In this document: piece after piece, positions 26,601-64,000 of the stretch
Layout: every line of letters starts with the position of its first letter
Numbering within the stretch: the stretch's first letter is position 1
Assembly (NCBI GenBank): GCA_022376515.1
Contig: WTXI01000026.1
Coordinates: forward strand, 310,001-374,000
Direction of reading: 5' to 3'
Origin: Lactifluus volemus
Lineage: Eukaryota > Basidiomycota > Agaricomycetes > Russulales > Russulaceae
Length of the DNA: 64,000 nucleotides
Notes under the pieces: generated by a model
What the model was told of the DNA's origin: nothing
The model's database searches: none
Seen by the model: only the letters and a program-made list of their open reading frames with translations
Position numbers and translations under genes: made by a program

Positions 26601-27543
26601 CGATGTCCTGCATGAGGCGATCGGCTTCCCTGGAGAGGTCGGCTTCAGAGGTGATCGGGGGAGTGATCGGGAGGGCCCGGAAGGTATGTTGCCAGGCGTC
26701 TTCCATGTCATCGATCACTTTGAACCCCGGGAGTTCCCGGGTGGGAGGGGGAGGAAGAGGAGAGTGAAGGGAGAGAGCGGTGGAAAGAGCGGCATGGTCA
26801 GAGTGAAGGGAGAGATCGAAAGAGACAGTGATAGGAGAAAGATCAAGGATGGCGGCAGCCAGGGAGTTAACGAGAAAGAGATCGAGAACGGAAGGTTCGT
26901 GTCCTGGGGGTCCCCTCCAGGTGGGCGTACCGAGAGGGTTTAGGCAGGCGAGGTCCTGTGACGTTATCCAATCTTCAAGGAGGGGGCCCCAGGAGGAGAG
27001 AGCATGTCCAGGGGGTGACCACATGGCACTGTGCGTATTGAAATCCCCTACGACCAGGGTGGGAATCGTGTTGTCAATGGAGGAGGAGAGGAGGCCGTGG
27101 AGGCCGTGCCCATGATCTGGGACGGAGTGATAGAAGTTGCATAGACGGAAAGAGGGTGCGGAAATGAACGTGAAGTCAACGGCCATGCCGGAAGGTGAAG
27201 AGAGGCCGTCGATTGATCGGAGGATCGGAGAACAGGCGGACATGAGAGAGTGATGGACGTAAAGGAGGGTTTTGGCGTGTTGGCCAGGTGTGAGGATAGG
27301 GCTCAGACAAGTCCATTTGTCATTGGCGGCCCCTCTGAGGATTGGGAGGCCGTCAGGATCCGAGTCAGAGCGAGAAGTGGAGACGTGGCCGAACCAGGGT
27401 TCTTGGACCGCGAGGATATGATGATCGGAGGATTGGAGGAGGGCATGCATCATGTGATTGCGGCGGCGCATGTTCACCGACAATATCTTGATATGGTTTA
27501 GAGACATTGACGACGGGCAGCCGCACGTTCGAATTTGAGCCAA
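23638..27543 (-). CDS. LINE ORF2: endonuclease and reverse transcriptase
   Basis: 1301 residues, uninterrupted. The N-terminal AP-endonuclease-like domain shows VQEPWF, VVGDFNTHSAMW, the SVLDLFLVNS strand and SDHAAL. The reverse transcriptase follows with RPISLLECAGKLLEKI, TIFFDIQGFFDNL, YGTPQGSPLSPILSAIY and the catalytic FQLYVDDS (YVDD). After the RT is a region whose pattern (YGHAFLLYSG, LKALSQGLNFFL, LYILLPNKL) resembles an RNase H fold without the expected acidic residues. The last 120 residues carry a Cys/His cluster (CPCNG, then HVLFDCRLHSDH) common in fungal LINEs. The start overlaps the end of ORF1 by 46 bp in another frame, so it is probably translated by reinitiation or frameshifting. 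Confidence 0.93.
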   Translation of the reverse strand: MAQIRTCGCPSSMSLNHIKILSVNMRRRNHMMHALLQSSDHHILAVQEPWFGHVSTSRSDSDPDGLPILRGAANDKWTCLSPILTPGQHAKTLLYVHHSLMSACSPILRSIDGLSSPSGMAVDFTFISAPSFRLCNFYHSVPDHGHGLHGLLSSSIDNTIPTLVVGDFNTHSAMWSPPGHALSSWGPLLEDWITSQDLACLNPLGTPTWRGPPGHEPSVLDLFLVNSLAAAILDLSPITVSFDLSLHSDHAALSTALSLHSPLPPPPTRELPGFKVIDDMEDAWQHTFRALPITPPITSEADLSREADRLMQDIDTVCSEFFDRRSTPDPRGARWWNQECSAALALWKQAPPPLRAPLYHALRTTITKAKRDAAHDFLDHCSPDDLWKAARWRHGRSVSLVPPLLDSTTNSLTVDPPAMATILQSRFFPPLPPGKAITLPSDPLPLPARHHGPVTPSEIRSALAPTSNKSAPGPSGIGYKLLKWAFAASPSRFVTLFSAALSLGVHPWRAARVVVLHKPGKPDYSLAKAYRPISLLECAGKLLEKIVAKRLLADLNTYHILPPLQFGSRDYSSAVDGAGHLAHLAQSCLKAGHVAATIFFDIQGFFDNLNPARVAHLLHIYGFPPSLVQWTLSFLSDRTASLSFNGYTHDPQSLSYGTPQGSPLSPILSAIYTVPLLTLLNSSDSSPFTSFQLYVDDSCITASGETYRSAASKAARLYEQAASWLFDVGLRLDPEKTEFMIFRTRHVERHFGPHLTRLALRDPSNGEYTVKASKVVRYLGIYFNPTLSWKEHVSIMASRARSSLAALGVLGNSIRGLDFANWRKVYLAVILPIITYGSPIWFTDVKQKGLVQPLQVAQNQACRRLSGAFRTTPTAPLHHLLSIPPVRYTLLKLRTQYITRLSSLPPSSPLLTSVWSNPISRWHLTFLPLTNLWSLVKSRTPPLFPFSYPSPPYLSAWSHQGFTSYASSPKEVHSLTRSLITKPPPLAHCLYIRSLPIPTPDSYGHAFLLYSGERLLQSEVSVDTDRRWSLLKALSQGLNFFLSLPSGGFLYILLPNKLVLPYLLNTSAKSPFLSFTSYFTSSLSSFLDPSPARAVELRLFKESWACVPGSEELARLLRELQPALAVEPPVPPSDLAFHLWGKEIASGELPRTPGHKAWRACPTTPSNQPPPFVRGLLSHKNRHLFTSGLQILSQHAFFADYSDQFRPLAGDNTFCPCNGIPFTPTLSPLHSGPPTPVPIHRYSINHVLFDCRLHSDHRASTIGGFSSQYLFSTEAGGRRLAQFLLLSQQGLRPLPPRPDPP

Positions 27544-30500
27544 CGTTGCTCCTCTGGCGACAAAGAAGCAAGTTCGGAGGTGGAGGGGCCGTCTGGGCGA
27601 GAGGCGAGGGAGAGGACATGGGCCGGGAAGTTGGAGGCGTCTACCGGGTTGACGTCATGAAAGATTGGGACAGGGCGCGGTCTGGAGATAGCGGAGATTG
27701 GCGTTGCCTCTGGTAGAGCACGGGAAGTGGTAGGTACGGGTGAGGATGGGGCCTCTTCGCCCTCCGAGGGGGTCGGGAGACGATAAGCAGCACGGAGAGG
27801 GCAGGAGACGTCGAGGGCAGAGTGTCCGACCAGAGAGGGGCCTTTCCCTGACTTTCGTTTGGTCCTGGTGCAGTTGAGGCATGTGGATTCGCAGTGACAG
27901 ACTGATGGTTCCTTATGTGAGAGAAGGTTGGGGCAGAGGTTAGCATGTTGTTCAAGAGAGTGTGGGCCGCCGCAGCGGGGGCAGATGATCTTATTCTCTG
28001 GGACACGGCAGCGCGTGGCCTGGTGGCCTAACGCCCAACAACGGTTGCACTGTTGGAGGGTAGGTCTGGCCTCAAAGCGTTGGGCGGTGACCCGTTGGCC
28101 GAAAAGGGCGGGAGGAGAGCGGATGAGAGAAGGGACGGTTTTGCCATCTGGGTCGACGAGACTGAGGAGGACGGAGGAGTGTCGAGCGAAGAAGTTGATA
28201 TCCTTCTTCAGCCAGCGAGGAGCGGCAAGGAAGGTGATGCCGGAGCAAACAGGGTTGGATTCCAGTTCTCGGCGAAGGTCTTGTTCAGAAGGGAGGTTGC
28301 CATTTTCATCTCGGATGATCGGGACTGCGTTCAGGAGGACTCGGACGGAGCCTTTCTGAGGGGCGAGAAGGCAAGGTGGGAAAGGATCGGTGAGGATTTT
28401 CCGGAGGCGGAAGATCGCTTCCATGGGAGGGGAACCAGCAAAAGTGAGGACGAAGTTGTGCGAGTTGGGGCCTTGCCAGCGTCCAGCAAGGAGGGAGACG
28501 CCGTCGGAGGGTACCGTGGATTGTCGGATGGCCCTCTGGAGGTCTCTGGTGATCGTTCCTTGATCGCCTCGCTTGGGTTCTTGGAGCAGGACAGGGGAGG
28601 TGCGGATGAGAAGGTAATCGGTGGTGAGGGAAGGGGAAGGGGCCTTGGTGGGTTGTGATTTCTGAGCGAGAGGCTTGGTGAGGTAAAGATCGACGATGGC
28701 AGGGATCGTGAGATTGGTGTTGGTCAATTTCTTGCCCCATTTAGCATGGTAAGCTGCCAAGAGTTGGGCGCGGGACATCTTGAGAAGGTCCTCCTTAGTG
28801 AGAACGGAGGAGGGTGGAGGGGACTGAGAAGAGGGTACCGTAGGGCTAGGTTGGCGTATGTTGGACCGTTGTGTCGCGGCCTGTTTCCCTTTCCCTTTCC
28901 GGCGGCCATGGACAGCACTAATCCAGGGGGCGGTGGGTGAGGAGGCGTCGTCCACCTCCGGGGGTGATGGCCGGGGAGTGACGGACAGAGCGGGTGGGGG
29001 GGCGGCCACAGATGTAGAGGCAGGTGGCGCATCAGGTGGCGCGTTGGCGGGGGGGAGGGGAGGGAAAGAGTGGTCGTCAATGCGCACGACAGGGGGAGGA
29101 GAGGGGTCGTCCCATCCCGTGGGTTGGGGGAGGGGCGGCACAGCGGTTTGCGGAGGGTCTCCACAGTCCATGTCGAAGTCGGGGCCGAAGTCAGGGTAGC
29201 CCTCTAGTACTTCGACTCTGAAGTCGAGGTTCTTCACCTTGGATGAGAGCGACGAAAGATGAGCCATGATTTCAGAGAGGCCTGGAACAGATGAGGTCGT
29301 AGGGATGGGAACAGGAGGGTTTGCAGGGAGAGGGGCCGAAGTGGCAGGTTGAATGAGTTGTTCAGTCGAGGTCTGGATGGGGGAAGCTGGAGGGATTCCC
29401 GGACCCGGGAGGAAGAGAGCAGGGGGTTCGTCCGGGGGGCAGATTGGAGATGCTTGAGGGGTGCGGTTGGGGGAGGGGTGGGTAGACTGGGCCCGGGATG
29501 GAGGGCGCGCAAGGGGGTCTACGCGATGGGTCTTATGGGAGGATTTGGCAGCAGATTTCGGGGGAGGAGGCAGCGCCTGGACTGCAGCAATGCGGGCCGC
29601 TTCTTTGGCCTCCTGGGCCTCGATGCGGAGTTGTTGTTTGTATGCGAGAAAGTCGGCATCCATCTGCTGGCGGAGAGAGGCACGGTAGGCCTCATATTCT
29701 TCAGAGAGTTCTCGAGAAGCCTGTGTCTGTAGACGGGCAAATTCATCTTTGTGGAGGGCAGCCACTTGGGCCCGTGCATCATCTAGGGACTCGCGGGTCA
29801 ACGCGGCAACAGTGGTGCGGCGCTCCTCCTCCGCTAGAGAGGGGATCACATGATCGGAGATGTGTTGGGCCATGTCTTTGACCCAAGAATTGAGTTCAGG
29901 GTGGGAGGTGTCGGAAGGGAGTCCGAGGACATGCCCAATCAATGCAGCTTTAATTTCCGTGAGTTGATCGGCGATCCAGCGATCGGCCAGCTGGGAAAGG
30001 TCCTGGTGAGCGGCGTTGAAAACAGAAGTGTGTGCTATCTGAAAGTCGTGGCCGCAGGACATGAGGGCGGCTTGGAAGGGTTGTTCCATCGAGGCCGTGT
30101 TGCAGTTTTCAAGGCAACGCATGCACAGCGACCAGTGGGCGGGGTCAGTGGTGAAGGAGGAGAAGAAAGAATCGATCGCGCGGACTCCGGCAGCGGTAGC
30201 GGCAACAGAGGCTTCTAAGTCGGTAGAGGGGTGAGGGAGAGGGTGAGTTTCATTAGGAAGTTCGGGGTCGAAAGTCATGCACGAGCGGCGCATGCCGCCG
30301 TGGATCTGGAGGACAATGTTGGCTGCCACACGAAACCAAAGGTCCCTAGGGACAGCGGAGTCGGGAGAGGAGGAAGGGGTAGTGAAGCCATGGCTGAAAA
30401 ACTCTCCGAGACGGTCGAGGGCCGCTCGGGTAACGCTGCCATTGACGGTCACGTCGAAAAAAGAGGAAGGAGGGGTAGGGAGGAGGTCGATGGTGAAGGT

Positions 30501-30644
30501 GGGGAGAGAGGTAGCTCCGGTGACGAGATGCACGTCCCCGAGGCCGGGGGGGACAGGGACGGGTAGGGAAGGGTGTGAGGGGTTGTAAGGAATAGGAAGA
30601 GCGGGGGGTTCCCCAGAGGAAGGAGGTGGGACAACGGGGTCCAT
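27498..30644 (-). CDS. LINE ORF1: coiled-coil, zinc-knuckle RNA-binding protein
   Basis: 1048 residues, uninterrupted. A Pro-rich N-terminus precedes a helical region. A long coiled coil follows around residues 270-360 (ERRTTVAALTRESLDDARAQ onward, rich in E, A, Q and R), then Pro/Ser-rich linkers. Near the C-terminus is a gag-like stretch with the zinc knuckle C-x2-C-x4-H-x4-C (CNRCWALGHQATRC), then CPRCGGPHSLEQHANLC and CHCESTCLNC. ORF1 proteins of this type bind the element RNA. The start is the first methionine (MDPVVPPPSSGEPP), 146 bp inside the 5' end of the element. Confidence 0.9.
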   Translation of the reverse strand: MDPVVPPPSSGEPPALPIPYNPSHPSLPVPVPPGLGDVHLVTGATSLPTFTIDLLPTPPSSFFDVTVNGSVTRAALDRLGEFFSHGFTTPSSSPDSAVPRDLWFRVAANIVLQIHGGMRRSCMTFDPELPNETHPLPHPSTDLEASVAATAAGVRAIDSFFSSFTTDPAHWSLCMRCLENCNTASMEQPFQAALMSCGHDFQIAHTSVFNAAHQDLSQLADRWIADQLTEIKAALIGHVLGLPSDTSHPELNSWVKDMAQHISDHVIPSLAEEERRTTVAALTRESLDDARAQVAALHKDEFARLQTQASRELSEEYEAYRASLRQQMDADFLAYKQQLRIEAQEAKEAARIAAVQALPPPPKSAAKSSHKTHRVDPLARPPSRAQSTHPSPNRTPQASPICPPDEPPALFLPGPGIPPASPIQTSTEQLIQPATSAPLPANPPVPIPTTSSVPGLSEIMAHLSSLSSKVKNLDFRVEVLEGYPDFGPDFDMDCGDPPQTAVPPLPQPTGWDDPSPPPVVRIDDHSFPPLPPANAPPDAPPASTSVAAPPPALSVTPRPSPPEVDDASSPTAPWISAVHGRRKGKGKQAATQRSNIRQPSPTVPSSQSPPPSSVLTKEDLLKMSRAQLLAAYHAKWGKKLTNTNLTIPAIVDLYLTKPLAQKSQPTKAPSPSLTTDYLLIRTSPVLLQEPKRGDQGTITRDLQRAIRQSTVPSDGVSLLAGRWQGPNSHNFVLTFAGSPPMEAIFRLRKILTDPFPPCLLAPQKGSVRVLLNAVPIIRDENGNLPSEQDLRRELESNPVCSGITFLAAPRWLKKDINFFARHSSVLLSLVDPDGKTVPSLIRSPPALFGQRVTAQRFEARPTLQQCNRCWALGHQATRCRVPENKIICPRCGGPHSLEQHANLCPNLLSHKEPSVCHCESTCLNCTRTKRKSGKGPSLVGHSALDVSCPLRAAYRLPTPSEGEEAPSSPVPTTSRALPEATPISAISRPRPVPIFHDVNPVDASNFPAHVLSLASRPDGPSTSELASLSPEEQRWLKFERAAARRQCL

Positions 30645-47664: not shown

Positions 47665-48606
47665 TGTCACGGTTCGCAGGGACCGTGGCTCGAAGTGAGC
47701 GTCGTTCTGGTTGGCTATTTGCTGTGGCGAGTCGGACAAGACTAGCAACACCAAATAGTCGATTCTAGCACGCGCAGGCAAGGTCCTGTGTGGAGTAGAC
47801 TTGACTGTGCGAACTCTGGGTGTCTGTATCGCGCGAGACGGGCTAGCGGGCCGGCGCACGCGATGGTCGGAGTTACCGTTCCCAAAAGGGATAGACGGTG
47901 GCAGATGGGTTAATGACGATGTGTAGGTTCAACCGCAACACGGGCGCGAGTGTAATTGGAATGCAAGAGATACTCGCCTTCCAAGGACACTCGTGAGAGG
48001 TTGAACTAAGGTTCGAGGGCGGACGCGAACGCGGGGTGAGAAGTGGGGACTACTTCTCACAGCGCGTTCGTATTAGGGTTCAGGCGTCTGGGGACTTGTT
48101 GCACGGAAATGGAACAAGTTCACAGATGTCTGATCGTGGCGCGAAGTACCTAGATCAAGGTACGAAGAGGGGATTCACAAGAAGAGAGGAGGAGATGCGA
48201 TGCGAGTGTGAGCAGGAAACAATGAACTGCGATTCTAGACGAAGCTGAAGCTGGGGCTTTAGCTCGTCTACAGGGCCCTATTTATGCGTACAGAGGGCCA
48301 GCCAACTATCCTACAAAGGTCACAGTACAGTAGCGAAGTCAGAACTATTGACTAAGGACCTGAGTCAGTTCTGATGACTCAAGAACTGACTCAGTGCGTC
48401 TGACTCAAGATCTGAGTCAAGAACGCTGACTCAAGATTTGAGTCATGATCCCTGAGTCAAATACACGTCCAAAACGGCGACGCACAGCCCCTAGAAGCGG
48501 AACAGAAGGGGCTGGCCAAGGAAAGGGATCCTAGGTCACAACACAAGTCGAAAATCAGACGGAAAATAGTCAGAAATGGGCCGGGCGGCCCGCATATCCG
48601 TAACAC
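47665..48606 (-). mobile_element. Solo LTR, gypsy family B, reverse orientation
   Basis: 942 bp, the reverse complement of the LTR at 59611-60546 along its whole length with few differences. On the minus strand it starts TGTTACGG and ends CCGTGACA. A 5-bp duplication CTCCC flanks it, so it is the product of LTR-LTR recombination after a complete insertion into the TTAA-rich element. Confidence 0.93.
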
Positions 48607-51109: not shown

Positions 51110-51625
51110 TGTTACGGAATGCAGGACACGTTGGACCCTATGCTTCCCTAACCCGCTTACTCATCCTGATGACGTCCCATCCACATTGTCTCTATTGTGC
51201 TGACTGTTTTATTGTTCTGATTGTGCTATTGTCTGTCCCAGTTAGTCCAGTGTTATTGTTCCGAGCCTCTATTGTTCTCGCGTTCTATTGTCTTGACCCT
51301 TTGCTTATTGTCCACCCTAGTTTGGTAGAACAATTAGCGTATGTTGTATAAGTAGGCCTCAGCTGGTAGCTTGTACCCCAGCTTCGGCTTTAACCTGAAT
51401 CGACTTGTTCCCCTCTCCTAAAAGACAGAACTTCTCTTCCTCCCCCTCCTCTCTTTCTCTCCCCCCTCTTACACGCCCTAATAAGGCTACTGAAGCTTGG
51501 TGGTTGTGCTACAACACCACAGGGCTCTGCGCGTCGTTACCTTGGGTAACCCTGAGCCTAGGTCTTAGGAGAGACCAGAATTACTTGAACCCTAGTTGGG
51601 ACCCAGCCCTAGTCGAGCCGTAACA
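51110..51625 (+). mobile_element. 5' LTR of gypsy element A
   Basis: 516 bp, TGTTACGG...CCGTAACA. A reverse-complement copy is at 52019-52531. It carries nine ATTGT motifs (51185-51311), a TATA box (51347-51350) and the R-region segment AGCTTCGGCTTT (51380-51391). Confidence 0.92.
51185..51391 (+). promoter_or_regulatory. ATTGT array, TATA box and start region of LTR A
   Basis: Nine ATTGT pentamers in 127 bp, mostly as (C/T)TATTGT(C/T), precede TATAAG at 51347. ATTGT is the core bound by HMG-box (SOX/Rox1-like) proteins. AGCTTCGGCTTT starts 33 nt after the TATA, where transcription should begin. Confidence 0.55.
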
Positions 51626-51637
51626 AAAGCCGAAGCT
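51626..51637 (+). other. Putative self-priming primer-binding site, element A
   Basis: AAAGCCGAAGCT lies immediately after the LTR end (51625). It is the perfect 12-nt complement of AGCTTCGGCTTT (51380-51391) at the predicted 5' end of the transcript, as in Tf1-type self-primed reverse transcription. Confidence 0.75.
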
Positions 51638-51639
51638 CT

Positions 51640-54161
51640 TCCTTAGTAGATGACCACTTGGGACTATCTATGACAACCAATCTATCTGCGGATCAAAGAA
51701 TTGTTGATTGACGCACACTTGAACAAGAACGAGGCAATACAGAAACAGTATAACGCCAAATGAAGATCGGAGCAAAGGTGCTGGAAAGAAGTCAGCATTT
51801 CTGGTGTACGCACCATTGGGCACCTAGAAACAATCTTGGGTGCAGGAACGGAATTGTTCCAATCTGAACAAGGAAACACGTTGATCCTCTATCTACCAGA
51901 GGATCACATTGCCTTCCATATGCAAGGCTGGACAGGAATAACGACAGGTCTTTAATCGTTGTCTGGGACACAAACGAAGACGACCTAGGAACTAGAATCA
52001 TTCCCAGAGAGGACGACGTGTTACGGCTCGACTAGGGCCGGGTCCCAACAAGGGTTCTGGTTGTTCGGGTCTCTCCTAAGACCTGGGCTCAGGGACACTC
52101 CAAGTGTCGACGCGCTGAGTCCTGTGGTGTTGTAGCACAACCACCAAGCTTCGATGACCCTACTAGGGCGTATAGGAGGGTAAGAGAAGAGAGGGAAGAG
52201 GAGAGGAGAAGATCTGTCTTTCTGGAGAGTGAAATGAGTCGATTTGGGTTAAAGCCGAAGCTGGGGTACAAGCTACCAGCTGAGGCCTACTTATACAATC
52301 TATGCTAATTGTTCTACCAAACTAGGGTGGACAATAAGCAAAGGGTCAAGAACAATAGAGAACTAGAACAATAGAGGCGCGAGACAATAACACTGGACCA
52401 ATCGGGACGAACAATAGAGCATCAGGACAATAGAACAGTCAGCACAATAGAAACAATGTGGAAGGGACGTCATCAGTGTGAGTAAGCGTGTTAGGAAGCA
52501 TAGGGTCCAACGTGTCCTGCATTCCGTAACACGATGACTTAACCATCGAACAGAAAGGAAGCATCAGATTCTTGGAAGATAGAAGACAAACGCACCAACT
52601 CTACCAGAAACCGACGACCTATCACTCCTATCACGTAGAAGAGAGATCGAGAACCAAGTACAGATCCCCCTGCGAATTCATCAACAACCAGTGGTACAAC
52701 ATCTATTGGTCAAACAGCGAGTATTGGACCGATCCCATGATGAAGTTCACCAAATATGACTACATCCTCAATGAGCTAGCTTTTTCCCCTTCTATGCAAG
52801 CGTCAGAAGCCAGTGAAGACAAGAGTGAGGATGGAGATGGAGCAACATCCCCCCAACAGGACTCGGCAGGAGCAAACTCCTCCTCCGGTGACAGCCAAGG
52901 CAGAGAACCCCCGCCCACGCAGGAAAACGAAGAACCAAGATTAATCACACCAGTCACCCCCATAGACCATGCCATGAGTGCCCTTAGCATCACCTCACCA
53001 ACCCCCATGTTTACTCGCTCAGCAACTCTGACGCAGCCAACCCAAACCACGGCAATGGCCGGACCAAGCCAGGGTGGTGGTGGTGGCGGTAGTGGCGGTG
53101 GTGGCAGTGGTGGTGGTGGTGGTGGCAGCGGTGGCGGCGGTGGTGGAGGTGGGGGTGCAGCAGCTGCAGCAGTCGGAGCCCAGCCAGTTGCCCCGCCAAG
53201 AAATGGCTTGAAAGGGATTCCACCTATGCTGTTCAAAGGAGACAAAAGTCTGTATGACGTCTTCAAAACCGAGTGGAGGATGTACAAAGCCATCAATCGA
53301 AACCACGATGACATGCTTGTCCCCTATAATCGCGTCATGACGATGCTAGGGATGGTCAAAGGACCTTTGGTGTCAGCATGGGTGCAAGACTACCTGGACA
53401 CGATCGAGCAAGAAGTGGTTCAGCATGGAGAAAATGCAGAAATCCTCTGGATCAATTTCGAGGATGCTTTGGACGATGCCTTCAAAGACACTAACGAAGA
53501 AGACGATACAATCACAAGGCTAGAGCACTTAGAGATGAAGAAAGGAAACCTAGCCCAGTATACGGCCGAGTTCAATCGTCTCAGAAAGAAGGCAGGATGG
53601 GACGCCGACAGTAATGGCACCATCAGAATGTACAAGAGGGGACTAGACCTAGGGCTCCTCACCAGCATGCTCAAACAAGTAGGGGCCAACCCAAACACCC
53701 TGAAAGACTGGCAGGAGCTGGCCACTCAGCACCACGACGCGTACCAACAATTGAGGCATGAAATCCGCTTCAGGAAGGACGTTCCCCGGTGGGCCAGCCA
53801 GCTCATGGCCAAAAAGAAGGAAACCCCCCCTCAGAAAGACCCTTGGGCCATGGACATTGATGTCACCAGAACTGACTCAACCAAAGCGGATGAAAAGCAG
53901 AGGCTGAGGAGGGAAGGGCGGTGTTTCTTCTGCAAGGAACAGGGCCACCTCTCCAGAGATTGCCCTAAGAAGAAAAAGGAAAGCAATCCCAGACCGTCAC
54001 AGCAGCCCAGGGCTAGAGCCAGCAAGAAGGAGGACGATGAAGCCACGCAAGTCAGTGACGACGAGGACCCCATCCAGATGCTCCGGAGCATCAGAGCCAA
54101 AATTGGGAAAGGAGCCTTCAACGCCGCCTTGGATGGGTTGGTAGAAGAAGAGGATTTTTGA
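51640..54161 (+). pseudogene. Gag of element A
   Basis: The 5' part (51640-51890) lacks a single open frame. From about 51867 the frame runs LIVVWDTNEDDLGTRI into the site of the solo LTR (52019-52531) and resumes exactly in frame after it (DLTIEQKGSIRFLEDRR). The rest (to 54161) has a glycine-rich linker (about 53070-53155), a capsid-like helical domain (MLFKGDKSLYDVFKTEW to DWQELATQH) and one zinc knuckle CFFCKEQGHLSRDC. It ends EEDF-stop at GGATTTTTGA. Confidence 0.85.
52019..52531 (-). mobile_element. Solo LTR, gypsy family A, inside gag of element A
   Basis: 513 bp, the reverse complement of 51110-51625 with scattered differences. Flanks are CGACG (52014-52018) and CGATG (52532-52536), a 5-bp duplication with one transition. 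Its removal restores the gag frame (REDDDDLTIEQ). A family member inserted into its own relative and was later reduced to a solo LTR. Confidence 0.9.
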
Positions 54162-54193
54162 ATGGCTCGACCCGCGCAGCCTGGGTGCGAGCC
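54152..54193 (+). promoter_or_regulatory. Putative -1 frameshift signal between gag and pol, element A
   Basis: GGATTTTTGA (54152-54161) ends gag. A hairpin GGCTCG (54164-54169) / CGAGCC (54188-54193) follows two bases after the stop, and pol continues in the -1 frame. The same layout exists in element B at 62623-62663. Confidence 0.65.
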
Positions 54194-57100
54194 TGTCTTA
54201 CTCAAATATGTCGTATCTCGAGAACCAATACACTGGACATTCCCCTATCGTTCACAAGCGCGACCAAGACGGCTGCCGAAAAGGCACTACTCAATAGTGG
54301 TGCCACAGAAAATTTCATTGACCCGAGGATGGTGGAAAAACTGGGTCTGGGATCGATAGACCTCCAGGAGCCACGAACGGTGTTCAATGTGGATGGAACA
54401 GAAAACCAAGACGGGAAGATCACCAGTTACTGTCTCCTCAATATACTGCAAGGACGAAAGGAAGCAGCACAAGTCTTCTTCATCACGAACTTGGGCGAAG
54501 ATCAAATTATCTTGGGATATCCTTAGTTACGAGAGTTCGACCCCCAAATTAACTGGAAGGATGGGAAGGTTCGTGGCCCACCGATCAAGCTTTTCACCAC
54601 AGGGCGAAGCTGGAAGTTGAAGTGGGCAGCACGAAAGACGAGGGCATGCAAGACGAGTTTTAGCCAACAATGGGCACAACGAGAAGGAAAGGGGCAAAGC
54701 AAGGTGGCAGTCCCAGAACAGTTCCAGAAATACGCCAAAGTTTTCTCGGAAGAAGAAGCAAAATGTTTCCCCCCTTCGCGACCAGAGGACCTTGTTATCA
54801 CACTATTGCCAGATGCCCCAAAGACCATCAATTGCAAGACATACAAATTAACGGCGGAAGAAACCAAATCCATACGAACGTTCCTCACCGAGCAACAGGC
54901 CAAGGGTTACATCACGAGGTCGAAATCGGCATGGTCCAGCCCCTTCTTCTACATCAAAAAGCAGGATGGGAAGCTGAGGCCAGTTTATGACTACAGAAAA
55001 GTAAACGAATGGACGGTTAAGGACATGTACCCCCTTCCCCGTATCGACACTATCTTCGACCAGATGGGAGACGCTAGGCTCATGTCCAAATTCGACATTA
55101 GGGATGGGTATTATAACATCAGAATCCACCCCGATAGCCAGTGGATCACAGCAGTCAAAACGGATGAAGGCCTATTCGAAGCGAAGGTCATGCCCTTTGA
55201 ACTATGCAATGCGCCAGCTGCCTTCCAACGGATGGCAGATCGCATCTTTGCCGATCTAAAAAAGAAATACCCTCGATGGGTTCACTAGTACCTGGACGAC
55301 TTTCTCATCGTGATCCCTGATGACCCAGAACTGCATGACCAGATCACCAAGGAGTACTTGGAGATCCTGGAAAAGGAGTCGCTCTTCCTGAAACCAGAAA
55401 AATGTCAGTTCGCTAGGAAGGAGATAGAGTTTCTGGGATACATCATCGATCAGGGGACCATCCGCATCGACCCAAGTAAGAAGCATGGCCTAGCAGACTG
55501 GCCTCAACAACTGAAGTCAGTACGGGAGGTCCGCAGCACACTTGGGGTCTTGGGCTATCAATGGCAGTTCATTCCAGGGTTCGCAAATGTGGCTAGGCCC
55601 CTAACCAACCTATTAAAGAAAACGACCAAGTTTGAATGGACCAAGGAATGTATGAAGGCAGTAGACCAACTGATCAAGGCAGTCACTAGCGATCCGGTGT
55701 TACAGCGGCCTAATTTGGCCGAACCATTCGTACTGGAAGTGGACGCTTCGCAGTACGCGAGTGGGGCCATTCTCCATCAACCAGACAAGGACCAGAAGTT
55801 GCGCCCAGTAGGCTACTACTTGTGAACGTTCAACCAAGCTGAGAGAAACTATGATATCCACGATCGGGAACTATTGGCAATGGTCCGAGGGTTGGAACAT
55901 TGGCGACACCTCCTGCTAAGCTCCCCACACGTTGTTACGGTCATCAGCGACCACGCAAACCTCCAGTACTATCGGGAAGCCCACAAGATTAGCAGGCGAG
56001 TGGCACGCTACATCCCAAAGATGGCGGAATACAACATGAGGATTGTGCACTGGCCTGGAAAAACCAATAAAGCTGATCCACTGTCACGACGACCAGGGTG
56101 TGATCAGGGGGAGAACGATCATGAGGATGTATTGGTCCTACCCCCGGAACTCTTTGTACGTCTCTTCACTGAGGAACAATCGCTGGAGCAGGAAGTGGAA
56201 CGAGCCCAAGAGCGGCACCAACAGCAGTTGGAAGAATGGACAAAGACGGAAGGAGTACGAAAGCACCGGACACACTTTGGAACCAAGTGGTATCACCACG
56301 ACCGGTTGGCGGTCCCAGAAGACCCCGCAGTGCACCGAAGCATTCTACAAATGTACCACGATCACAAGACGGCAGGGCATCCAGGGATCATGAGAACTTG
56401 GTCCACAATAGCTAAGGACTATTAGTGGCCCACAATGAGAACGTTTACCACCAAGTATGTGCAAGGGTGTGCAACTTGCCAAAGCACCAAGAGTGGCACG
56501 ACCAGACCCAAAGTCCCTTTGGTGCCCATACCCCCAAAACAAAGCTACGCCCCGTATTTGACAATTGCCTTAGACCTAATCACAGACCTCCCAGAGTCGC
56601 AAGGCTACGATAGCATTCTGACCATCACCGACCACGACTGTAGCAAGGCAGCATTCTTTATTCCTTGCAACAAAACCATCGACAGTGAAGGAGTTGCGAG
56701 ATGCTATGCCAAAGAGGTGTTCCCCCACTACAGCCCCCCAAAGCGGGTGATTTCGGATCGCAATCTGTGTTTCGCATCAAAATGGACAAGAGAACTGTGT
56801 AGACAATTGGGGATCGACCAGAACATCAGTACGGCATACCACCCCCAGACAGATGGCCAATCGGAACGAACGAACCAATGGCTAGAACAATACCTACGCG
56901 TCTATGGAAACTTCCAACAGAATGACTGGGTCAGCTGGTTGTCTCTAGCCCAATTCGTACACAACTCGTGGATCAATGAAACAACAAAGCAAACCCCGTT
57001 CGACTTACTCATGGGACACACGCCCACGGTGTGGCAAACTGACAAGGAAGGGAAGATGCCAGCCGTAGAACAGCGCAAAGACTATCTGATGGAGAAACGT

Positions 57101-57322
57101 AACCAAGCGCGTCAAGCGATCCAAAGGGCGCAAGACCTCCTCCAGAAGTGGAATGTGCGAAAGAAGGGCAGACGGGCATATGAACCCTTCAAGGAAGGGG
57201 ACCAAGTTTGGCTAGACGGGAAGAACCTCAAAACGTCACACCCCTTCGCCAAGTTAGCCCCAAAAAGATACGGCCCATTCCCAGTGGTCCAGGTGATTAA
57301 CCCGGTGGTTTTCGAACTGAAA

Positions 57323-57327
57323 CTCCC
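57323..57327 (+). repeat. CTCCC target-site duplication, left of third solo LTR
   Basis: CTCCC, repeated at 58200-58204. Confidence 0.85.
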
Positions 57328-58199
57328 TGTCAAGGCTCAGAAGGGCCTTGCGCTCGACGTGAGCTTAGTCGCGTGACCTAGTCCTTTCAAGGGCTAGCGT
57401 CACGTGACACTTGAGGTTGCTGATTAAACTTGAGGGCACGTGAGTCCTGTCACGTGACCGTGGGATACTTGATGATGATGTAACGGATGACTAAGCCGCA
57501 GTGGTCACGAGGCTTAGTCTGACTAATCAGGGTTCAGGGTTCTATGTCCCACTGGCTCTACTCAGGAGGAGGGCGTCGCGCTGACGGATGCACCCCTGGT
57601 ATTGTCAATGATCTTTTAGGGCCCCTCTCTGGTAGGCAAGAGCTAACCCTCCTAACACACTAGAGGTTAGGGAGGATGACTTAAGAGATGAGAGGGGAGA
57701 CCGGAAGGTCTTTGGAAAGTGGGAAGATGGTGGTTCTGATTAAAGACGAAGTGAAGACTAAAGACAAGGGGCACTGAAAGTGCCGGCTTATATACTACTG
57801 GGATGTGACGCTTACTAAGGGAATCTCAGGGATGTCACATAGGGTGACATCACGATATAATAATAGATAGGGGCTAATAGGGGCTGATCGAGATAGCATC
57901 GAGATAGGATCGAGATGTATCGAGATCCTGGGGTAACCTCGGTGCTGCGCCGGAATGATGTCGGGGTCACATCGGGGTAATCTTGGGGGAACTGTATCGT
58001 AACTGAATCTGTATAGTACTGTATAGTAGTTATGTAAGCGAGATCGGATCGGGGATAGATCGAGCGTCACGTGTCTTCACTGTTTACTTAGCTTGGTTCT
58101 TGTTTGTTACTGTTGTTTATATGGCTTGAAATGGTTTGAATTTCCCACGGTTGCAAGTGGTACTTTTCTGAACGTCATGTGACGGTGGAAACCGTAACA
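57328..58199 (-). mobile_element. Solo LTR of a third gypsy family
   Basis: 872 bp. On the minus strand it starts TGTTACGG (ends at 58199 on plus as CCGTAACA) and ends CCTTGACA. CTCCC flanks both sides. On the minus strand a TATATA box (about 57789-57795) is followed by a CCCC-TTGTCTTTAGTC region, similar in layout to the other LTRs. Inserted in the integrase C-terminal part of element A. Confidence 0.88.
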
Positions 58200-58204
58200 C
58201 TCCC
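58200..58204 (+). repeat. CTCCC target-site duplication, right of third solo LTR
   Basis: CTCCC, same as 57323-57327. Confidence 0.85.
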
Positions 58205-58535
58205 AGATCAGTGGCGTCAAAAACGCGTCCACCCGGTCTTCCATGCGTCCCTTCTATCTCCATATAAGGAGACAGAAGAAAACGGGCAGGCCTTCACGGA
58301 ACCAGCCCCAGACGTAATAGAAGGTGAGGAAGAATACGAAGTCGAACAAGTGTTGGACTCCAGGCGAAAGGGGCGTGGCAAGGGGCGCCTCGAGTATTTC
58401 CTGAAGTGAGAAGGGTACCCCCACGCCCACAACACCTGGGAACCAGCTGACCAGGTGCACGTGGATGACTTGGTGGAGGAATTCCACAAACAAAACCCAA
58501 CAAAGGCGAGAAAAATTATAATAAGGCGAGGGAGG

Positions 58536-59610
58536 ATGGGTAGCAGACAATGCAGCTTCGCTCCCTCTTCCAAGAACCTGACGAACCCCCTTTCGTTGTC
58601 CCTCACTTCCGCGAGTTCTTCCTCAAACGACAAATCCATATCACCTACGCCCATCATAGCCAGCACAAACACTTCTGTCGGGAGGCCATCTGCGCTTCCC
58701 ATTACTAACGCCCCGGTCACCTCGCTCCCCTATACTTGGGAGGAGATTCAATCCGCGAACCTCGACCTCTCCCTTCCTCAAATCTTCCAAGCTTCCCGCG
58801 CGGACGCCAACTTCTTCGATCCCAAACGAGAACATCGCACTTCCCCCGGCTCCTTCATCATTGACTATTGTCAAGTCCGTCTCGTGTGTTTGGGGATCCT
58901 GTATGACTGGCCAGTGGGGCGCGAAAGCAACTACGAGTGGCCTTACAATCCCTATAAGTACTACGAGGATACCCGACAGTGTCTTCACTGCCTTTTCGAC
59001 TTCAAGTGGAGGAGAGACCACCCCGGAGCTCAGAAACGCACCCGCGTCTTCACTGACGGCCGTAGCACCATGGTTGCCCAAAGGCTGGGTGACTTCGCTA
59101 GACCAGAAACCCCTGAAGAAGAATGGTTTGAGGAAGACGACAAAGGCAAGCTACAGATCAACCTCCTTCGTGCTCCCACAAACCCCACTGTCGTGGCGGC
59201 GCAGACAGACAGTTGGCTCCCGGATCCGCCCCCTCAGACCCGCAGCGTTGGCACCCAGACAACCCCAGTTAGCACACAGGATGAAGCCATTCAAGCATTT
59301 CCTACCTACGGAACCACCGAATATTGGCTCGACCAGAGGGACGGTAATCCTGGGGGTCCTCAGCAGAGAGATCGGGATATGGAACCACGAGCGCGTCTTA
59401 CTCTTCACCCACACGGACTTGATCGCTTGGGACTCGATTCCGGAGGTCTTCAGAGATTCGATTTTCCAAATGACTCTACGCCGCGTAGAGAACTAAAGCA
59501 TTGCCGCTTCCACGACAGAATGATGACCCATAACAGCGACGGCTGCCCCTTCCCTCACTTCTCCTGTATGCCCGGGCTTGGAGTGTGCCACGTCCCTGAG
59601 GACCACATAT
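58536..59610 (+). CDS. Downstream coding region (third ORF or Pol extension) of element A, truncated
   Basis: From MGSRQCSFAPSSKNL the frame is open for about 360 codons to the insertion of element B, and it is in the same frame as the chromodomain upstream with no stop between. Features are a Ser-rich start, LPYTWEEIQSANLDLSLPQI, the block LVCLGILYDWPVGRESNYEW, HPGAQKRTRVFTDGRSTMV and, near the end, a Cys/His group (CRFHDRMMTHNSDGCPFPHF and SC). I do not recognise a domain. It could be an additional protein of this chromovirus lineage or a captured host sequence. It breaks at VPEDHI. Confidence 0.65.
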
Positions 59611-60546
59611 TGTTACGGTTATGCGGGCCGCCCGGCCCATTTCTTACTGTTTTCCGTCTGATTTTCGACTTGTATTGTGACCCAGAATCCCTTTCCTTGG
59701 CCAGCCCCTTCTGTTCCGCTTCTAGGGGCTGTGCATCGCCGTTTTGGACGTGTATTTGACTCAGGAATCATGACTCAAATCTTGAGTCAGCGTTCTTGAC
59801 TCAGATCTTGAGTCAGACGCACTGAGTCAGTTCTTGAGTCATCAGAACTGACTCAGGTCCTTAGTCAATAGTCTTGACTTCGCTACTGTACTGTGACCTT
59901 TGTAGGATAGTTGGCTGGCCCTCTGTACGCATAAATAGGGCCCTGTAGACGAGCTAAAGCCCCAGCTTCAGCTTCGTCTAGAATCGCAGTTCATTGTTTC
60001 CTGCTCACACTCGCATCGCATCTTCCTCCTCTCTTCTTGTGAATCCCCTCTTCGTACCTTGATCTAGGTACTTCGCGCCACGATCAGACATCTGTGAACT
60101 TGTTCCATTTCCGTGCAACAAGTCCCCAGACGCCTGAACCCTAATACGAACGCGCTGTGAGAAGTAGTCCCCACTTCTCACCCCGCGTCCGCCCTCGAAC
60201 CTTAGTTCAACCTCTCACGAGTGTCCTTGGAAGGCGAGCATCTCTTGCATTCCAATTACACTCGCGCCCGTGTTGCGGTTGAACCTACACATCGTCATTA
60301 ACCCATCTGCCACCGTCTATCCCTTTTGGGAACGGTAACTCCGACCATCGTGTGCGCCGGCCCGCTAGCCCGTCTCGCGCGATACAGACACCCAGAGTTC
60401 GCACAGTCAAGTCTACTCCACACAGGACCTTGCCTGCGCGTGCTAGAATCGACTATTTGGTGTTGCTAGTCTTGTCCGACTCGCCACAGCAAATAGCCAA
60501 CCAGAACGACGCTCACTTCGAGCCATGGTCCCTGCGAACCGTGACA
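59611..60546 (+). mobile_element. 5' LTR of gypsy element B
   Basis: 936 bp, TGTTACGG...CCGTGACA, matching the solo LTR 47665-48606 in reverse. It has eight TGA(G/C)TCA motifs (59757-59855), a TATA-like ATAAATAG (59931) and the R segment AGCTTCAGCTT (59964-59974). Confidence 0.94.
59757..59974 (+). promoter_or_regulatory. Eight TGA(G/C)TCA sites, TATA box and start region of LTR B
   Basis: Eight exact TGACTCA/TGAGTCA heptamers fill 99 bp; a ninth near match is TTAGTCA. This palindrome is the Gcn4/AP-1 bZIP site. The TATA box at 59931 is 33 nt before AGCTTCAGCTT. The solo LTR copy has eight sites over 48361-48459 too. Confidence 0.75.
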
Positions 60547-60547
60547 T

Positions 60548-60558
60548 AAGCTGAAGCT
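60548..60558 (+). other. Putative self-priming primer-binding site, element B
   Basis: AAGCTGAAGCT, one base after the LTR end, is the perfect 11-nt complement of AGCTTCAGCTT (59964-59974) in the R region. Relative to element A both partners differ by the matching base (CGG/CCG against CAG/CTG). Confidence 0.75.
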
Positions 60559-60734: not shown

Positions 60735-62632
60735 TTGATCGACAAAACGGCTTCCATAACTGTTGGTTGGACCTCAGAGAAGGGGAAGCTCACCAGAGTC
60801 GAAACCAGAGACGCACCAGACCTCCCAGACCACGTAGTTGGGCACGCCTTTTGGATAAAACGTCAAGAAAACCCCAAGCAAAGTGCCTATTGGGCTTTTG
60901 ACAAAGGAGATCCACACGGACCCATCGAGTTTATCAACCAGAAGTGGTATCACGTCGAGTGGTTCGATAAACCACAGACTTACGCGACGGAGATAGGGAG
61001 ATACATCACAGACGACGACATCGCACGATTTGAACTTGGCTGGTGGAGACCAAGTGATCCACAGCACCCAGACTATCCAGTACACGCGCTGTCCTTGACA
61101 CCGGCAGGCTCAGGATCTGGAAGTACCCCAGAACGACCCGAAGCACTTTCACCTAGTGGACAGTTATTTGAACCGGTCTATCAAGCCGCACAGCCCCCTT
61201 TGATCAGTGTTCCCCCTGGAATTCATCAGCAGCTTGAACCAACCTCGACGTTGCAAGTGCCCCCAGTACAAAAACAAATGGAATCACCATACTCCGATGT
61301 CAGTGTGTCAATGGTGACAGACCCAACCAGTGGAATGTTGGTGGATCCCACCATGTTTCCAGCCGCCCTCTCCCCCGCTCCACAACCTCATCCTAGTGTG
61401 CCTAGTGGTAGTGCGTTCATCAGGTCAGCTGCGGTCAGCACTGCCATCACCACACCAACAGCACTAGCTGGCATCACAGGATTCAGCTCCTCTGGGCAAC
61501 CTGGAGGAGGACCTCCGGCTGGGGCACAGCCGGGAGGAAGTGGAGGTGGAGGAGGTGGAGGTGGAGGTGGAGGCGGAGGAGGAGGAGCTCCCCCTCCAGG
61601 AGGACAAGCAGCAGGTGGTCAACCACACCAGCCTTCAGCCCTCTTTGGCACGATCCCTGAAATTTTCAATGGGGATCGTGACGACCTCGCGCGTTTCCGC
61701 CGCGCCTTCACAGTCTTCTGGGAGATGAATCGGGACCACCCCTCCATAAGCAGCCCCTACATGCGGGTCCTCACCTGTGTGGGAAGGATCCGAGGCAAAG
61801 CAGTCGACCAGTGGGTCGATGGAATCATCCAACCCTTGATGAATGGGGTGGCAATGTGGCGGCAGTACCCAAATCACCTTCTGGCCATTGACCCAAACAA
61901 CGAACAAGTCTGGACGGACTTTGACAATGCGTTCAAAGCTCAGTTTCAGAACACTGTGGCCAGAGAGGAGGCATTGGGGCGCCTGCTCACCCTGCAGATG
62001 CAAGGGGAAGACCTCAAAACGTACATCAATGATTTCAATACACTAATCGCTCTTGCCAAGTGGGGTCCAAATGAGCAAGGGACCCTCCTTCGATTTAAAG
62101 ATGGCTTGAAGCGAGTCCTCCGTGAAAAGATCATTGATTTTGAGGCCACCCTACCCGATACTCTGAAGGGATGGCAAGACGCAGCCCTGAGGCGCCAAGG
62201 GAGGTGGATCGAAGCCAGGGCCACCTCTACAAGCCAGGCCAAAACTTCCGCCAACGCCTTGCTATGGCGCTAGGGAGGTACCAGCAGGACAGGCACACGA
62301 AACCCCGACCTTCTGACGCCATGGACGTTGACGCCATCCATACGGGGGGGCCTACCCCTGAAGAAAAGAAGAAATTAGTAGCGGAAGGTCGCTGCTTCAC
62401 CTGCAAGCGACAGGGCCATGTGAGCCGCATGTGCCCTGAGAAGAAGAAGAACCAGAACAAAGGCAACAAGCCTGCACAGCGCCCCGCCGCAGTACGGGCT
62501 GTCGAAGAAGAAAAGAAAGAAATCACCCGCGACCAGCTCATGGACGGACTTATGAAGTTGTCTGACGACGACAAGGAACGCTTTATCAAGGATATGGTTG
62601 ACTCCACCGACTCTGCGCCCCAGGATTTTTGA
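60735..62632 (+). CDS. Gag of element B, with one frameshift
   Basis: The first frame (60735-62273, 512 codons) begins MIDKTASITVGW, has W-rich IEFINQKWYHVEWFDK, Pro/Ser-rich and polyglycine linkers (61530-61600) and a capsid-like domain (EIFNGDRDDLARFRRAF to GWQDAALRRQ). The zinc-knuckle part (CFTCKRQGHVSRMC, MDVDAIHTGG, to APQDF) is in the next frame. The switch occurs at about 62224-62228, where ACCTCTACAAG would need one more C to give ATLYKPGQNF. A single-base deletion or an assembly error is likely. It ends at the same GGATTTTTGA as element A. Confidence 0.88.
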
Positions 62633-62663
62633 AGAGCTCGTGCCGCGCGACCTGGGTACGAGC
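62623..62663 (+). promoter_or_regulatory. Putative -1 frameshift signal between gag and pol, element B
   Basis: GGATTTTTGA (62623-62632), then hairpin GCTCGT (62636-62641) / ACGAGC (62658-62663). The -1 frame continues as S-C-R-A-T-W-V-R-A, matching S-T-R-A-A-W-V-R-A in element A. Confidence 0.65.
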
Positions 62664-64000
62664 CTTAGGACTGAAACGAATGTACATTAGCTATGCCAAT
62701 GCCAATGCTTTGAATTTGCCCATTTCATTTTTGAATGTCCACAAAACGGTCGCAGATGTCGCCTTAGTCGACAGTGGAGCCACGGAAAACTTCCTTGATC
62801 AGCGCACAGTCCGCCGATGGGGACTCAGCACTCATAGACTCCCTCACCCCCGCTACGTCTACAATGTGGATGGAACCCAGAACCAGGCTGGGACACTTAC
62901 GGAGTATTGTGTTCTTCGCTGTGTCGTGGGGGACAAAGACACTCTCCAGCGGTTCTATGTCACCAATCTTGGCAAGGATCGTGTCCTCTTGGGGCACCCC
63001 TGGCTCTCAGAGTTCAATCCTCGTATCGATTGGACCAAGGGAGAAGTACAGAACGGAGGAGTACGGATCGAAACCAAGTGGAGGAAGTTCCAGCGCCCTC
63101 GTCAGATATACAAGGACAGGGAGAGGGAACCAGCACGCATTGATCGCACCAATGTGGCCCAGGAATGGGCCATAAAGGCGCACCAAGAGCAGGTAGCCAG
63201 TGGGGAAAAGCACGAGGTGCTACCACCCCAATACCGAGACTATGCGGACGTCTTTGACGAAGAAAAATCCCATCGTTTCCCACCTTCACGACCAGAGGAT
63301 CACGCCATTGTCTTGAAGGAGGACGCCCCAGCTTCCATCAATTGTAAAGTCTATGCCCTCACAAGGGAAGAGAAGGAAGCGACCCAGAAGTTCTTGAAAG
63401 AGAATGAGCAGTGGGGATTCATCGAAAAGTCCAACTCTCCTTGGTCGACCCCTTGGTTCTTTATAAAGAAAAGAGATGGGAGTCTCCGGCCCATCCAGGA
63501 CTATAGGGAAGTGAACAGTTGGACGATTCGAGATGTGTACCCCATCCCTCGCATTGAGCAAATTCTGGAAGCGTTGCACGGACGCACCCTCTTCACGGCA
63601 CTGGACATTCGTTGGGGCTATCATAACATCCAGATTCGCCCTGAGGATCGATGGAAGGCTGCGTTTAAGACTCCCTTTGGCCTGTACCAACCAAAGGTGA
63701 TGCTCTTTGGCCTCCAGAACTCTCCAGCCACCTTTCAGCATTGCATGGATCGGGTCTTTGCTAAAATCATGAACCGCTACCCAGGGAAGGTGTTTGTGTA
63801 CATGGATGATGTCTTGGTGGCCACAGGAGGAGACGTGGAGGAACATAGGAGGATAGTCCGAGAAATCCTCGAGATGTTCCGCCAAGAATCCTTCTTCCTC
63901 AAACTGTCGAAGTGCAAGTTTGAGCAGACCAGCATTGACTACCTTGGCATCCGTGTGGAACACGGGACCATCTGCATCGATCCCACGAAGAGGAAAGGAC
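62629..64000 (+). CDS. Pol of element B (partial): protease and reverse transcriptase
   Basis: Open from the -1 frame start to the window end. Protease: VALVDSGATENFLDQ with the catalytic Asp intact, and VLLGHPWLSEFNPRIDW. Reverse transcriptase: FFIKKRDGSLRPIQDYREVN, TALDIRWGYHNIQI, LFGLQNSPATFQ and the catalytic VYMDDVLVAT (YMDD at 63799-63810), then FLKLSKCKFEQ. RNase H and integrase would lie beyond 64000. The first in-frame ATG is at 62680, but continuation of gag by frameshift is more likely the way it is made. Confidence 0.93.
   Translation, partial: MKSSCRATWVRALGLKRMYISYANANALNLPISFLNVHKTVADVALVDSGATENFLDQRTVRRWGLSTHRLPHPRYVYNVDGTQNQAGTLTEYCVLRCVVGDKDTLQRFYVTNLGKDRVLLGHPWLSEFNPRIDWTKGEVQNGGVRIETKWRKFQRPRQIYKDREREPARIDRTNVAQEWAIKAHQEQVASGEKHEVLPPQYRDYADVFDEEKSHRFPPSRPEDHAIVLKEDAPASINCKVYALTREEKEATQKFLKENEQWGFIEKSNSPWSTPWFFIKKRDGSLRPIQDYREVNSWTIRDVYPIPRIEQILEALHGRTLFTALDIRWGYHNIQIRPEDRWKAAFKTPFGLYQPKVMLFGLQNSPATFQHCMDRVFAKIMNRYPGKVFVYMDDVLVATGGDVEEHRRIVREILEMFRQESFFLKLSKCKFEQTSIDYLGIRVEHGTICIDPTKRKG

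Follow-up and report, generated by a model that had tools for sequence, protein, structure and literature searches.

Covarying R and primer-binding-site segments point to self-priming in Ty3/gypsy retrotransposon families of Lactifluus volemus

Within a 64,000-nucleotide stretch of the Lactifluus volemus genome (contig WTXI01000026.1, positions 310,001 to 374,000, forward strand; hereafter the window, whose own numbering is used below), we found a retrotransposon, element B, that on the evidence of its sequence very probably primes its own reverse transcription, the 5' end of its RNA (R) folding back onto its primer-binding site (PBS). Self-priming is well supported by the presence of the R/PBS pair in five families (A to E), five covarying base pairs in the R/PBS helix (helix I), a second covarying helix (helix II), a PBS predicted for family E from its R segment, and Copia elements of the same genome in which such a pair is absent. 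Self-priming of this kind is already known, as in Tf1, and families A to E look like new members of the self-primed elements.

Element B and its primer pair

The initial annotation of this DNA had noted that the R segment of element B, 33 nt downstream of a TATA-like box, is complementary to a segment just past the LTR. Letters, coordinates and spacing were all correct, and the complementarity extends over 11/11 positions. The features of element B are as follows.

59606-59610, + strand: left copy of the TSD CATAT; the right copy follows the 3' LTR, beyond the window
59611-60546, + strand: 5' LTR (TGTTACGG...CCGTGACA), delimited by a solo LTR, the 3' LTR (L008) and the TSD CATAT
59931-59938, + strand: TATA-like box ATAAATAG, 33 nt ahead of R, with equal spacing in A, C, D and E
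59964-59974, + strand: R segment AGCTTCAGCTT, 5' arm of helix I, predicted RNA nt 1-11 and putative self-primer
59984-59989, + strand: helix II 5' arm TCGCAG, nt 21-26 of the predicted RNA
60532-60537, + strand: helix II 3' arm CTGCGA, at the end of U5, 16 to 11 nt before the PBS
60548-60558, + strand: PBS AAGCTGAAGCT, 3' arm of helix I, 1 nt past the LTR
60735-62273, + strand: gag ORF (Pfam Retrotrans_gag)
62629-63999, continuing beyond the window, + strand: pol ORF (RT; protease matches weak and under the Pfam cut-off)

The LTR borders were set independently of the pair, using the solo LTR at 47665-48605 and the 3' LTR at C179:377124-378065; these two terminate at matching letters, and CATAT flanks element B on both sides. 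The PBS is separated from the terminal CA of the LTR by a single nucleotide. With an LTR pair that is 98.8% identical, TG..CA ends and this duplication, element B is an LTR retrotransposon of the Ty3/gypsy type, and of chromovirus type by its relatives. Its domain order was seen in part, with RT in the window and the integrase H2C2 domain at C179:374819, in a 1494-aa open frame downstream of the window.

Based on this anatomy, the RNA of element B would most likely start at or beside 59964, its first 11 nt would fold back over approximately 584 nt to pair with the PBS one nucleotide past the 5' LTR, and the 6-bp helix II between nt 21-26 and the end of U5 would support the fold. By analogy with Tf1, the RNase H of the element may then cleave the RNA behind nt 11, leaving a 3' end from which minus-strand DNA synthesis would start.

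Element A and nested insertions

Element B is inserted in element A, the two being flanked by different duplications (CATAT for B, TGACT for A). The R segment, PBS, TATAAG motif and again 33-nt spacing that had been described for element A were recovered as described, and its LTRs have TG..CA ends and are 99.0% identical (5 mismatches in 516).

51110-51625, + strand: element A 5' LTR; the 3' LTR lies beyond B at L008:2606-3121, with TGACT at both ends
51380-51390, + strand: element A R segment AGCTTCGGCTT, 33 nt past TATAAG at 51347
51400-51405, + strand: element A helix II 5' arm TCGACT
51611-51616, + strand: element A helix II 3' arm AGTCGA
51627-51637, + strand: element A PBS AAGCCGAAGCT
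52019-52531, - strand: inverted A-family solo LTR within element A (R at 52252-52262; flanks CGACG/CGATG)
57328-58199, - strand: E-family solo LTR within element A (R AGTCTTCACTT at 57749-57759; flanks GGGAG/GGGAG)
within 57328-58199, - strand: helix II arms TCAGAA and TTCTGA of the E-family solo LTR
47665-48605, - strand: B-family solo LTR (R at 48242-48252; flanks CTCCC/CTCCC)

The region from 51110 to 59610 and beyond is thus a set of nested transposons, in which element A hosts B together with A-family and E-family solo LTRs. Elsewhere in the window, a LINE-type element occupies positions 23638-30644 on the - strand; it has two long ORFs, of which one encodes an endonuclease and a reverse transcriptase domain, and it sits in a stretch of strong GC skew.

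The pair across gypsy families of the genome

A search of the 62.4-Mb genome with the pattern TRACANAAGNNNARKCTC, which combines the LTR end with a PBS of this type, gave 232 matches compared to 3 for the reversed control, indicating that the arrangement is more than chance. We then selected 20 gypsy loci (5 + 15) by integrase domain alone, among the 150 hits listed and ignoring the pair. Sixteen had a readable 5' end, the stretches of L032, L037, L038 and L050 being without one. R starts 33 nt after a TATA-like box in all 16 readable loci, although in C and D a longer TATATAA run makes a spacing of 31 or 35 equally readable, and R and PBS match perfectly over 11 nt in 15 of them, with one mismatch in L039. 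Within the batch of 15 stretches, 11 had a perfect 11- or 12-nt pair at TATA+33 adjoining the LTR end, L039 with its single mismatch being the twelfth. Complementary pairs of at least 10 nt also occurred elsewhere in these 15 stretches, many of them in the tandem repeats of L044, and none of those outside R/PBS lay 15-50 nt from a TATA-like box.

The comparison of LTR families that the initial annotation had proposed bears out its expectation for the gypsy families sampled, as families A to D each carry an 11-nt R segment at TATA+33 complementary to their own PBS, and family E does so as predicted (see below). The pairs (R/PBS) are:

family A: AGCTTCGGCTT/AAGCCGAAGCT
family B: AGCTTCAGCTT/AAGCTGAAGCT
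family C: AGACTTCGCTT/AAGCGAAGTCT
family D: AGCTTGGACTT/AAGTCCAAGCT

The copies read for A (L034), C (L033) and D (L035), one per family, encode RT, RNase H, integrase, SH3_Tf2-1 and a chromodomain in that order (Pfam Chromo E-values of 8.7e-16, 6.2e-15 and 8.9e-15, respectively), which identifies them as Ty3/gypsy chromoviruses. Their pol frames (L034:672-5366, L033:3565-8508 and L035:4156-8658) continue for 410-455 aa after the chromodomain and stop shortly before the 3' LTR, and this extension gave no Pfam match in the A, C and D copies. In L034, the listed gag and pol ORFs occupy different frames and overlap by a few bases (5363-5366, - strand), which suggests frameshifting or reinitiation rather than one ORF.

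A primer-binding site predicted from R in family E

One stretch (L094) contained an unrelated LTR with AGTCTTCACTT after TATATAAG, the R segment of a fifth family, E. From this R segment alone we predicted the PBS AAGTGAAGACT and searched for it genome-wide in the form ACAN + PBS. Seven matches were found compared to none in the reversed control, whilst the family E R 18-mer had 21 genome matches and likewise none in its control. Comparison of positions by hand placed the R 18-mer 432-438 nt upstream of six of the seven predicted PBS places, on the same strand; for the seventh (C89), no exact R was present among the R matches listed. The E-family solo LTR within element A accounts for one of the 21 R matches, and its R begins 33 (or 35) nt after a TATA run. 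Family E is known here from its LTR, R and PBS sequence, and the end of its LTR resembles that of family C.

A second helix at a fixed position

Free folding of the predicted RNAs of A to D yields the 11-bp helix I with a mean pair probability of 0.95-0.97, and in A, B and D it adds the 6-bp helix II, in which nt 21-26 pair with the end of U5 so that the 3' arm lies 16-11 nt before the PBS (15-10 in D). Family C can form five of the six helix II pairs at the same place, where its free fold favours a local hairpin, and family E can form all six (TCAGAA with TTCTGA, the PBS being taken 1 nt after the LTR). Across 100 copies from families A to D, the arms of helix II are 83-100% paired in register compared to at most 60% when the register is shifted by up to 6 nt either way. 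All six pairs are present in all 21 D copies, in 28 of 37 A copies and in 21 of 25 B copies, and one pair is absent from each of the 17 C copies.

Helix II also changes in a compensated manner within families. A double change from G-C to C-G, which converts TCGACT/AGTCGA to TCCACT/AGTGGA, is shared by three A copies (L051, L054 and L058) that belong to one clade, whilst a C-G pair has become U-A in one D copy (L071) and a G-C pair A-U in the B-like L036. A third helix between post-PBS and LTR sequence, of the kind described in Tf1, was not found to be shared by the families, in which such matches are family-specific. The longest candidate, 10 nt in B (nt 70-79), overlaps a local hairpin and is not claimed.

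Covariation between families

RT identity among families A to D ranges from 49.6% (A-B) to 67.6% (B-D), A being the most distant of the four, and their LTRs have only short matches in common, of up to 24 nt. In helix I, 5 of the 11 pairs differ on both sides among A to D and none on one side only. When helices I and II were taken together with one row for each of the five families, 10 of 17 pairs had changed on both sides and 98.8% of cells were paired; in shuffles uncorrected for relatedness, four of the five measures were matched or exceeded by 0/500 and the fifth by 2/500. Eight hand-chosen rows covering both helices likewise gave 10 of 17 doubly changed pairs, with shuffles that again ignore relatedness. 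The rows in all of these shuffles are hand-chosen representatives.

The initial annotation had rated the covariation between A and B above either match by itself, a compensatory change appearing to preserve the pair. The pair is indeed kept despite changes in both R and PBS, but the step is neither recent nor free of a mutational reading. Since A is the most distant of A to D by RT identity, A and B do not differ by one recent step, and an origin of B from A by a recent compensatory change is ruled out by the A-B and B-D identities given above. Where A has CG, B has CA in R and TG in the PBS; these differences are of the CpG-decay type, to which nearly all one-sided variants within families also belong. 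Families C, D and E supply stronger covariation than the A-B contrast.

Copies within families and CpG decay

In total, 102 distinct R/PBS pairs were read on both strands, of which 100 were retained after dropping L068 (wrong anchor) and L130 (the same place as L010). Left uncounted were PBSs lacking an R anchor, namely those of L036 and L114, with a matching R at 510 and 522 nt, and those of L073, L094 and L101, with no R in the stretch. Thirteen of the 100 copies had been fetched for a variant PBS and were kept apart from the other 87. These 87 are a non-random set, drawn from B-family DNA hits, the integrase-picked loci, the window, and places from 100 listed of the 232 TRACANAAGNNNARKCTC matches, the latter taken mostly in list order (contigs C1-C141, some skipped) from a listing itself selected by PBS type.

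The R/PBS match is perfect in 80 of these 87 copies (26/28 in A, 25/25 in B, 9/13 in C and 20/21 in D), and of the seven broken pairs, three could form G-U (C copies L070, L127 and L128). Among the 13 copies selected for a differing PBS, the pair is intact in 3 and broken in 10. In A and C, the one-sided changes are C-to-T or G-to-A substitutions affecting the pair's CpG, with L057 carrying one further change outside it, and are as would be expected from decay of methylated CpG. The pairs of B and D are without CpG and nearly free of misfits, the sole D misfit (L097) being a G-to-A outside CpG.

These observations bear on a purely mutational explanation, whereby CpG decay in both arms would have turned the A-type pair into the B-type without selection for pairing. 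The exact nature of the A-B difference and the one-sided variants at the CpG of A and C are what this explanation would produce, and five of six copies hit in both arms match at the CpG, a frequency that independent decay would reach with p ~0.11. We therefore rejected the matched variants in A and C (L051, L055, L010 (= L130) and L060) as added covariation, the five matches being within chance; L051, L055 and L060 carry many CpG changes (L010 lay outside that comparison), and those belonging to A fall in separate lineages. Against the mutational explanation, the differences that separate C, D and E from A lie elsewhere in the pair and are compensated throughout, the helix II double change in the three A copies from a single clade is not of the CpG-decay type, and the CpG-free pair of B is perfect in every copy. 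As sole explanation CpG decay is already refuted by C to E, and it is scarcely credible as the origin of the pair, whilst being a likely source of the variants within families. The helix I data within families neither add covariation nor contradict pairing, and the argument is carried by the data between families.

Independent variation of the two segments among full-length copies had been named in the initial annotation as evidence that would count against the pairing. It is partly present, in two A elements (C135 and C508) whose R has changed from CG to CA in both LTRs whilst the PBS keeps A-type letters, the LTR pairs being 98.7% and 98.8% identical; yet the great majority of unselected copies, as counted above, are perfect. 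Since the R change is found in both LTRs it most simply predates insertion, so that, barring two separate origins of the change, mobility is compatible with a mismatch between R and PBS. These two elements limit the pairing rule without removing it: R/PBS pairing is a rule, not an absolute.

Copia elements and tRNA priming

As a control, five Copia elements were read among the 150 hits listed, the repeat ends of three of them (L132, L133 and L135) not being clean TG..CA. In all five, the longest LTR stretch complementary to the first 25 nt beyond the LTR has at most 7 nt. In four (L131, L132, L134 and L135), GTTATGGGCCCTG directly follows the LTR or is separated from it by one extra G, whilst L133 has a different sequence at the PBS position. 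A tRNA-Met gene of this genome (L140:1473-1548) contains CAGGGCCCATAACCC, which is complementary to GTTATGGGCCCTG, so that the four Copia PBSs match its anticodon arm. Half-tRNA priming of this type is known from copia.

The Copia sites show that tRNA-type priming exists in L. volemus, and a tRNA or tRNA fragment might thus also prime the gypsy families, their R/PBS complementarity being a by-product of, for example, a regulatory leader fold. The 3' CCA end of a tRNA would give a PBS starting TGG, whereas the PBSs of all five families begin AAG; moreover, the PBS varies from family to family and matches the R of the family concerned. Judged from the first letters of the PBS and its match to R, we consider such a tRNA primer highly improbable for element B and its relatives, and favour self-priming.

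A possible route to covariation

In Tf1, the self-primer is reportedly not removed. If the primer likewise stays on the cDNA here, the next PBS would be copied from the 5' R, and both new R segments would derive from the parent's 3' LTR. Plus-strand synthesis would copy the retained R-derived primer, and a change in the 5' R would pass into the PBS of the next generation. It is conceivable, though rather doubtful, that R acts in this way as the master copy of the PBS and that replication itself, with R changing first, produced the covariation, and not selection for rare double mutants. C135 and C508, in which both LTRs have the new R beside an unaltered PBS, resemble the first step expected of such templating; parallel decay, or a tolerated one-sided change, fits them as well.

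Relation to known self-primed elements

In the Tf1 element of Schizosaccharomyces pombe, the PBS is complementary to RNA bases 1-11, and the cut by RNase H falls between bases 11 and 12 (PMC7175516); further duplexes, in which PBS-adjacent sequence pairs with LTR sequence, are also described (PMC10085805). The families reported here are similar to Tf1 in their 11-nt match between predicted 5' end and PBS and, in A, C and D, in the chromodomain, priming being deduced in their case from sequence. They differ in having sequences of their own, gag and pol listed as separate frames, a pol that in A, C and D runs 410-455 aa beyond the chromodomain, and a single supporting helix common to the families. 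Within the Tf1/sushi group, self-priming is presented as a common feature in fungi, vertebrates and non-seed plants (PMC10085805, PMC6317226 and PMC4600332). With members of this group (for example Tj1, Tosmo1-3, Tcry1 and the plant Tcn1 clade), our five families share complementarity of 5' end and PBS, here at TATA+33, where the RNA probably starts. The Pfam SH3_Tf2-1 match in the A, C and D copies is the one domain link to Tf1/sushi. In Cryptococcus neoformans, Tcn1 is proposed to self-prime like Tf1/sushi (PMC7175516), whilst a potentially novel priming is proposed for Tcn2-5.

Through this analysis, a single match read by hand became a genome-wide test with a successful prediction in family E. 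The sampled gypsy families of L. volemus have a self-complementary 5' end and a fixed two-helix layout, whilst the sampled Copia elements of the same genome have a tRNA-type primer site (4/5). Copies in which R and PBS are matched, changed on one side or doubly changed provide a natural data set on whether the primer dictates the PBS.
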